This document shows, piece by piece, positions 54,056 through 56,022 of a stretch of DNA of 64,000 bases. The stretch's first letter is position 1. Every line of letters starts with the position of its first letter. The DNA is from Carallia brachiata (Eukaryota > Streptophyta > Magnoliopsida > Malpighiales > Rhizophoraceae): positions 8,792,639 through 8,856,638 of the forward strand of contig JADCRB010000016.1 of assembly GCA_021464245.1 (NCBI GenBank), given 5' to 3'. Position numbers and translations under genes: made by a program. The notes under the pieces were generated by a model. The model saw only the letters and a list, made by a program, of their open reading frames with translations, had not been told where the DNA came from and made no database searches.

Positions 54056-54873
54056 TATCACAGTGCTAAATTTCTCACTCGAATTTTTGCCTTGTGATGG
54101 CATTAAGTCGCAATTAGTCTCAACCAATCGCACACACAAGGATTGTATAATGGAACTTTATAACAAGCACACAACTCGCACACTCAAAATAAACACAAGA
54201 GCATACAAGAACCTTTCCCAACCTTTATTACTTTAACTAAAAGTAATACAAAGGAACAAATCATTGAACTCTCAATAGTATTTCACTCTTTCTCTCTAAG
54301 TACAATTGAGACCCATAAGGTTTGACATCCCGGACTATATAGGGCTTGGAGATAAACGTTATCTCCCCACGATCTCTGTCATGGCTGATAATCTTCCCAC
54401 GATCTTATCCACGACTCCATGTTGATTAGCCTTATCTCCCATGATCATCCATCACTTGATCTCAATAAAACCTTATCTACCCACGATCCTTAGCCATGCA
54501 TAATCTAATGAGCATTATCGCGATGCTCTGCCAACAAGATAGAGCCATACTCGCACGTCCCCACATTCCACACGTCACAAGAGACTTGGTGCCATGTAGT
54601 GCCATGCAATGCCATGCAGACTTGGCCAAGACTCATTCTTGTGTTTTTGGGCCTCTTGGCCCATGCCCATGACCCATTGGATGGAGCCCACGAATCTGTA
54701 GCCCAATCCATGCCTTGGTCCACCTTGGGACCCACACGTAGGCTCGTGCCTACGCTGAACCCTCTCAGGTTTCACCTTGCCTCAAGAAGTGCCCAGCCAC
54801 CCTAAAGTCCAATGCTGGGAATTGGCAGAAGGTGCCACCAACTCTAGCATGCTAAGTGTTCAAGGGACTAGCA
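54056..54873 (-). repeat. 5' LTR of a chromovirus in reverse orientation in 18S
   Basis: About 818 bp. On the minus strand it starts TGCTAGTCCCTTGAAC and ends GTGATA, beside a damaged primer binding site. The outer terminus at 54873 is followed immediately by CCTACCGTGGTGG of plus-strand 18S, so the element runs opposite to 18S. Confidence 0.88.
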
Positions 54874-56022
54874 CCTACCGTGGTGGTAACGGGTAACGGA
54901 GAATTAGTGTTCGATTCTAGAGAGGGAGCCTAAAAAATGACTACGACATCCAAGGAAGGTAGCAGGTGCACAAATTACCCCATCCTGACACGAGGAGGTG
55001 GTGACAATAAATAACAATACCGAGCTCTTGTGAGTCTGGTAATTGGAATGAATACAATCTAAATCCTTTAACGAAGATCGATTGGAGGTCAGGCCTTGTG
55101 CCAGCTGTCATGGTAATTCCAGTTCCAATAGCATCTATTTAAGTTGTTAATTAAAAAGCTCGTAGTTGGACCTTGGGATGAGTTGATCAGTCTGCCTTTG
55201 GTGTGCACCTTTCGCCTCATCCCTTCTACCGGCGGTGCGCTCTTGGCCTTAATTGGTCGGGTCATGCCTCCAGTGCTGTTACTTTGAAGAAAATAGAGTG
55301 CTCAAAGCAAGCCTATGCTTTGGATACATTAGTATGGGATAACATCATAGGATTTTGATCCTATTATGTTGGCCTTTGGGATCGGAGTAATGATCAACAG
55401 GGACAGTTGTGGGCATTCGTGTTTCAAAGTTAGAGGTGAAATTCATAGATTTATGAAAGACAATCAACTGCAAAAGCATTTGGCAAGGATGTTTTTATTA
55501 ATCAAGAATGAAATTTGGGGCCTAAAAAACGATCAATACCATCTTAGTCTCAACCATAAGCGATGCTAATAAAGGATCGGTAGTAGTTGCTTTTAGGACT
55601 CTGCCGGCACCTTATGAGAAGTCAAAGTCTTTGGATTTCGGGGGGAATATGGTTGCAAGGATAAAACTTAAAGGAATTGATGGAAGGGCACTACTACGAG
55701 TGGAGTCTATGACTTATCTGGTCCAGACATAGTAAGGATTGACAGACTAGGTGCTTTTTTTTTTATTCTATGGGTGGTGGTGAATGGCCGTTCTTAGTTG
55801 GTGAGAGATTTGTCTGGCTAATTTAATTAACGAATGAGACCTCAGCCTGCTAACTAGCTAGGTAGAGGTGATCCTCCATGGCTAGCTTCATAGAGGGACT
55901 ATGGCCTTCTAGGCCAAAGAAGTTTGAGGTAATAGCAGGTCTGCAATGCCCTTAGATGTTTTGGACCACAATCATGATACACCTATATATTCAACGAGTC
56001 TATAGCCTTGGCTGATAGGCCT

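Follow-up and report, generated by a model that had tools for sequence, protein, structure and literature searches.

The window, by which we mean the whole stretch of 64,000 nucleotides from Carallia brachiata analyzed in the present study, is composed of decayed pieces of 45S rDNA that match 18S, 5.8S, and 25S rRNA, together with satellite arrays and copies of Ty3/gypsy elements. The satellite arrays have a period near 53 bp (e.g., 58–4280, 13481–16987, and 29788–47555), and the satellite stretches 1–4282, 13481–16987, and 27729–48930 also show longer, higher-order periods of about 104 and 156 bp. In the rDNA unit carrying the LTR copy designated c2 below, the array starting at 27729 lies about 0.8 kb upstream of the 18S start (26934, minus strand), which is the place of the intergenic spacer. 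Single Ns at 6377 and 61513, where homology breaks off abruptly on both sides, and a run of 279 Ns inside 25S (11250–11528) are joins in the draft assembly. Pol fragments of the element meet in opposite orientation at about 18498 (16980–18499 and 18498–20445) to form a head-to-head inversion joint, and the block contains other fusions, of 18S to pol and of 18S to satellite.

The element under study is a Ty3/gypsy LTR retrotransposon, as seen from the TG...CA ends of its LTRs, a primer-site-like sequence, gag, protease, reverse transcriptase, and an integrase located after the reverse transcriptase, although the domain matches were gathered from separate open pieces in several copies, not from one intact element. 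The most complete copy spans 20444–26589, about 6.1 kb. Its internal region, between the LTR copies c2 and c1 (21307–25738, minus strand), gave matches to the RVT_1, Integrase_H2C2, and SH3_Tf2-1 domains in separate decayed frames, and a weak match to the integrase core (E = 0.015) that was below the cut-off. A reverse transcriptase piece matched the Ty3 polyprotein in PDB with an E-value of 5.6e-27. Gag and protease were matched in other copies, at 19080–20039 and 60030–60488; the former range belongs to the remains of a second, head-to-tail element (16980–20443, minus strand) with gag/protease frames at 19626–20039 and 19080–19625 and an inverted part at 16980–18499. A chromodomain-like stretch was seen by eye only, and the tested pieces of two copies, whose frames are broken there, gave no match to the Chromo domain. 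No clade label was found among the best 120 of 2345 reverse transcriptase protein matches, few of which bear names, or among the three hits of eight candidates obtained when the integrase zinc-finger piece was used as a protein query. The size of about 6.1 kb fits that of Beon1 (6,038 bp) and that of the CRM-clade Beetle3 (5,917 bp) alike (sizes from PMC3605345); the element is probably a Galadriel-clade chromovirus like TRRT and Beon1. A further minus-strand copy of the internal region lies at 58887–61512, where the LTR side stops at the N at 61513 and leaves the LTR and its junction unseen. A 510-amino acid minus-strand frame at 5062–6594, which spans the N at 6377 and matches Retrotrans_gag (E = 3.5e-18), apparently belongs to a different Ty3/gypsy element.

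Five LTR copies and their 18S borders

A blastn search with the LTR of the reversed copy, c4, found five LTR copies in the window, which are 818–868 bp long and show 80.7–89.0% identity in the ten possible pairs. Four of the five touch 18S, and all four do so at the identical CCTAC, three in the forward direction (junctions at 26589/26590, 50258/50259, and 62983/62984) and one in reverse. The LTR ends on the 18S side can be placed to the base. Both the 18S numbering and the identities to 18S given here use as a working reference an angiosperm 18S sequence of 1807 nt, called the reference 18S below, and in its numbering we take the insertion site to be nt 342.

The LTR c2 (25739–26589, minus strand), delimited by reading its border and by pairwise identity, is a 5′ LTR that is forward relative to its own 18S. 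The 18S upstream half preceding it (26590–26934, minus strand), located by the rRNA match and by alignment to the reference 18S, ends in GGCCTAC and is followed by the LTR 5′ end TATTAG, a decayed form of TGTTAG. The LTR c5 (62984–63842, plus strand), delimited in the same way, is the 5′ LTR of a forward element and is followed by primer-site-like sequence; the upstream half before it (62638–62983, plus strand), which corresponds to nt 1–346 in the alignment to the reference 18S, ends in GGCCTAC, after which TGTTAG begins. The opposite end of a forward element is preserved at c3 (49391–50258, plus strand), a 3′ LTR preceded by the region encoding the integrase SH3 (Tf2-1-like) domain and a purine-rich tract (48928–49390, plus strand; domain match and similarity). 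Its 3′ end GTGACA stands against the CCTACC of 18S at 50259, where CCTACCATAG of 18S is read, and 18S from nt 342 to about nt 1653 lies behind it (50259–51556, plus strand; blastn and alignment to the reference 18S). The remaining copy, c1 (20444–21306, minus strand), with a purine-rich tract on its 5′ side and a primer site on its 3′ side, has no contact with 18S and is common to two head-to-tail elements, which is a product expected of LTR-LTR recombination. The sequence-only reading that preceded this study held that, in the copies other than c4, it is the LTR 3′ terminus that faces the 18S downstream half. That arrangement is seen directly only at c3, whereas c2 and c5 show the complementary junction of the 18S upstream half with the LTR 5′ end, and c1 is without 18S.

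As CCTAC is found upstream of c2 and c5 and, at c3 and c4, downstream, we read it as a target duplication of 5 bp. None of the insertions in the window has CCTAC preserved on both of its sides, and one ambiguous base at the LTR 3′ end makes a 4-bp duplication, CTAC, possible, which is the length counted for the tomato element TRRT (PMC2679016). Apart from these copies, 32 bp at 58378–58409 resemble the LTR 5′ part (87.5%) and are possibly the remnant of an insertion outside 18S.

The reversed junction

The reversed copy is represented by its 5′ LTR c4 (54056–54873, minus strand), which was located by direct reading of the DNA, by blastn with the LTR, and by pairwise identity. The earlier observation that the 5′ end of this minus-strand LTR, TGCTAG, lies directly on plus-strand 18S was confirmed by the direct read: the end abuts CCTACCGTGG of 18S with 0 bases between them. 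The plus strand reads AAGGGACTAGCA up to the junction and CCTACCGTGGTGGTAACGG from it onward, and on the minus strand the LTR starts with TGCTAGTCCC at 54873. The CCTAC at the junction (54874–54878, plus strand; direct read) is the one copy of the presumed 5-bp target duplication that is left here, and it opens the decayed 18S downstream half of this unit, from nt 342 to the end (54874–56314, plus strand; rRNA match and alignment to the reference 18S). At its left end, the LTR continues into TAGTATCAGAGG, a decayed match to TGGTATCAGAGC, which we take to be the tRNA (Met-tRNA-type) primer-site motif. Given that primer-site-like sequence on its left, c4 is a 5′ LTR, and the internal region of its element extends leftward from it. 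Its 3′ border is imprecise by a few bases because bases between the LTR and the primer site are apparently missing.

The internal region of the reversed element (51558–54055, minus strand), whose primer-site end is at 54055, was assigned from its similarity, at the DNA level, to other copies of the element, since the one piece tested, 52997–53335, gave no Pfam match. Its pol is cut off on the left, at about 51557, by fusion to 18S. Thus the reversed insertion can be judged at only one of its ends; the upstream side is absent from the window, and the element is fused to the 18S of the neighboring c3 unit. This left end is a rearrangement, in which the 18S of the c3 unit can be followed as far as about nt 1653 of the reference 18S and gives way to the truncated pol near 51557, with the breakpoint at 51551–51560 (no strand assigned). 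The 18S break is at or beside the third CCTAC of 18S, at nt 1653, and its partner is the middle of pol, not an LTR end; its position beside a CCTAC is probably a coincidence.

The divergence of the LTRs and their flanks is uninformative about the number of insertions. Among the five LTRs, that of c4 has on average diverged most (80.7–82.9% identity to the others). Between c3 and c4, identity is 82.3% in 18S and 81.9% in the LTR (p = 0.86), and between c2 and c5, the LTR differs by 12.2% and the flank by 9.4% (p = 0.11); such distances are compatible with separate insertions as well as with a single one, and do not demand the former. Identity to the reference 18S is 92.4% (c2) and 94.8% (c5) for the upstream halves, and 86.7% (c3) and 86.5% (c4) for the downstream halves. 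In the latter pair, decay relative to the reference 18S is strongest at CpG, with transitions at 55 of 148 (c3) and 59 of 182 (c4) CpG positions, compared with 56 of 506 (c3) and 61 of 550 (c4) for C/G positions elsewhere. Over 1263 alignment columns, 104 changes are private to c3 and 107 to c4, 52 are shared identically, and 12 columns differ differently; the mostly private changes indicate that the two units probably decayed apart most of the time. Shared changes at CpG sites (26, versus private 31 in c3 and 28 in c4) compare with 21.1 expected by chance, and those at non-CpG sites (26, versus private 73 and 79) with 5.6 expected. The excess of non-CpG sharing may reflect species differences from the reference 18S, or some common pseudogene ancestry of c3 and c4.

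The 18S target and related elements in other plants

In the reference 18S, three places carry CCTAC (nt 342, 781, and 1653) and two carry GTAGG (nt 330 and 1781), together 5 of the 1803 pentamer places, while the hexamer GCCTAC is found at nt 341 and 780 only and GTAGGC is absent. The place at nt 781 is uninterrupted in both window units that reach it, those of c3 and c4. An inverted repeat at the target, ATGGTAGG-ATAGTGG-CCTACCAT in the reference 18S, folds as a hairpin, and the Rfam model pairs the same stretch. The idea that a hairpin is a feature common to nt 342 and nt 781 was, however, unsupported because local folds position CCTAC differently: nt 342 opens the 3′ arm, whereas at 781 just the last base of CCTAC is paired. 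A pattern of the 18S-LTR junction also gave 72 matches in viral contigs, but these were matches to 15 fixed letters and were taken as chance.

A close parallel is TRRT of tomato, of which seven copies occupy one 18S site in one BAC, six forward and one reversed; all seven are flanked by CTAC, and the reversed one, TRRT1, has the most alike LTR pair (PMC2679016). Like the element in the window, TRRT is a Ty3/gypsy retrotransposon residing in decayed 18S units, it is similar in length (5,645–6,028 bp, compared with about 6.1 kb), it shares the flank CTAC, and it adjoins spacer-derived satellite, the amplified intergenic-spacer subrepeats of tomato being 52–53 bp and the period in the window 53 bp (PMC2679016). 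The two differ in position, the published place of TRRT being “781 bp” of 18S and that of the window element nt 342 of the reference 18S, and in that the reversed TRRT has two LTRs while that of the window is truncated; the TRRT-bearing 18S copies are 92–94% identical to normal 18S, a range to be compared with the values given above for the upstream and downstream halves in the window (PMC2679016). Jo et al. (2009) read the reversed TRRT as an inversion from its identical flanks (PMC2679016). Reverse integration into the same cut also yields identical flanks, and the inference of an inversion therefore does not follow. The TRRT copies outside rDNA bear other flanks (PMC2679016), which speaks against strict specificity.

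Beon1 of beet occupies a conserved position in 18S, where two wild beets carry it in either orientation, and its 5-bp duplication is GTAGG, the complement of CCTAC; Weber et al. (2013) placed TRRT and Beon1 in the Galadriel clade and suggested a single ancestral insertion of Beon1 (PMC3605345). If the published table follows the element direction, its antisense GTAGG equals CCTAC on the 18S sense strand, as in the window. On the other hand, the position of Beon1 is 736 in its own numbering, compared with nt 342, and its LTRs are identical and 631 bp long with intact coding sequence, while those of the window are 818–868 bp and heavily decayed (PMC3605345). Among other Galadriel-clade Ty3/gypsy chromoviruses, monkey of banana maps at the nucleolar organiser (PMC2956553, PMC8879896). 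Plant LTR elements weakly prefer palindromes as targets according to Jedlicka et al. (2019), but for Galadriel the preference lacked significance (p = 0.40 over 49 sites), and 4-bp duplications were the commonest in that clade (PMC6911290). The available part of PMC12222929 contained nothing on 18S insertions. In the literature consulted, which was mostly open-access, an LTR element at nt 342 of 18S is not described, and a search for CCTAC associated with gypsy elements in 18S rDNA gave no paper. Non-LTR elements of the R1/R2 type lack LTRs and insert in one orientation, which is set by target-primed synthesis. They, too, are rDNA-targeted, but their target is 28S (PMC10257491).

The “781 bp” of TRRT together with its flank CTAC fits the second GCCTAC, at nt 780–785. 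We suppose that the 736 of Beon1 differs from 781 through a different start of numbering, and Beon1 would then probably be at nt 780–785 as well. That 18S has two GCCTAC places, at nt 341 and 780, and that both would be used points to a sequence-preferring integrase, a reading that depends on the published numbering and on the letters of the reference 18S. If the numbering is read correctly, related elements sit at the same pentamer in two places of 18S and in both directions, which a single insertion followed by duplication does not explain; here, the window element would be related to TRRT closely enough for the two-site argument, as judged from architecture and not from a tree. It is conceivable, though we hold the idea only tentatively, that the integrase of these elements recognizes (G)CCTAC in 18S and uses nt 341–346 and 780–785 in either direction.

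Origin of the reversed copy and its meaning

The best explanation for the reversed junction, and one we consider likely, is a separate integration in the opposite direction into the same 5-bp staggered cut. The integrase would join new cDNA to a staggered cut at GG^CCTAC^CATGG of 18S, and because the cut would be identical whichever way the cDNA lies, insertions in either direction would end up with CCTAC at each side. There would have been two or more separate integration events, at least one in the forward and one in the reverse direction, after which duplication, deletion, and inversion of rDNA units would have copied and broken the units, one deletion taking the 3′ part of the reversed element along with its 18S upstream half. 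A preference for (G)CCTAC within 18S would account for the repeated use of the site; were a second insertion to fall anywhere in 18S, simple arithmetic gives a chance of about 1 in 1,800 for the same nucleotide.

Two homologous routes to the reversed arrangement were rejected. The argument of the sequence-only reading that LTR-LTR recombination cannot switch one arrangement into the other is upheld by reasoning, as each terminus keeps its own flank; a crossover between LTRs, whether direct or inverted, cannot bring the 5′ end of an LTR up against the downstream half of 18S. Inversion through the hairpin arms would leave 12 bases of 18S, GTAGGCCACTAT, between the reversed LTR and CCTACC according to a prediction made by hand on the reference 18S, and none is there.

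A single ancestral insertion, with the reversed copy arising from a later inversion during rDNA rearrangement, is the view published for TRRT1 (PMC2679016), and a single ancestral insertion was suggested for Beon1 (PMC3605345). It is in keeping with a block rich in rearrangements, such as the head-to-head pol joint at about 18498, an example of non-homologous inversion, and the 18S-pol and 18S-satellite fusions, with the similar divergence of LTRs and flanks, and with the above-chance non-CpG sharing between the 18S of c3 and c4. Nevertheless, we consider it unlikely, because one break would have to fall precisely at the 5′ terminus of the LTR and another precisely between the 3′ terminus and CCTAC, an outcome that, we reason, homologous exchange between LTRs or 18S copies cannot give; the 12 bases expected from hairpin exchange are absent, the joint shares only TG as judged by eye, and two-way use of one 18S site is found also in tomato and beet (PMC2679016, PMC3605345). 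A replication or end-joining accident might instead have fused the 5′ terminus of the LTR with 18S where both happen to have TG, without any integration, and on its left side the reversed element does end in such a fusion with short shared sequence. A chance joint is, however, very unlikely to coincide to the base with the LTR end and with the target at once, and we regard this origin as quite improbable. An error of assembly is highly improbable: the window is a joined draft with Ns at 6377, 61513, and 11250–11528, and its units are alike (the 18S pieces are 82% identical and, with the leader, 91%), yet there is no N at the junction, a misjoin driven by repeats should connect matching positions, whereas here an LTR terminus meets a target site, and a reversed element at one 18S site has also been sequenced in the tomato BAC (PMC2679016).

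Separate reverse integration had been equated in the sequence-only reading with true site specificity. The integration itself stands as the best explanation, backed by a junction exact to the base though by only one of the two ends, but specificity is a stronger claim than the data carry, in view of the TRRT copies with other flanks outside rDNA (PMC2679016). All four 18S junctions observed in the window are at one site in two orientations.

Two-way use of one 18S site is of a kind known from tomato and beet (PMC2679016, PMC3605345), while the position at 18S nt 342 and the GCCTAC it shares with nt 781, the place of TRRT, seem to be new. Two published accounts derive same-site 18S retrotransposons from a single insertion followed by duplication or inversion (PMC3605345, PMC2679016). 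The findings of the present study, namely an exact reversed junction at another 18S position with the same 5-bp duplication, argue for target choice by the LTR integrase. Real target choice by an LTR integrase is, to our knowledge, rare. (G)CCTAC provides a simple motif to seek in assembled plant rDNA, and if the tentative reading of (G)CCTAC recognition is true, this would be an LTR retrotransposon with a sequence preference that directs it to a conserved gene, not a lucky insertion copied by rDNA duplication.
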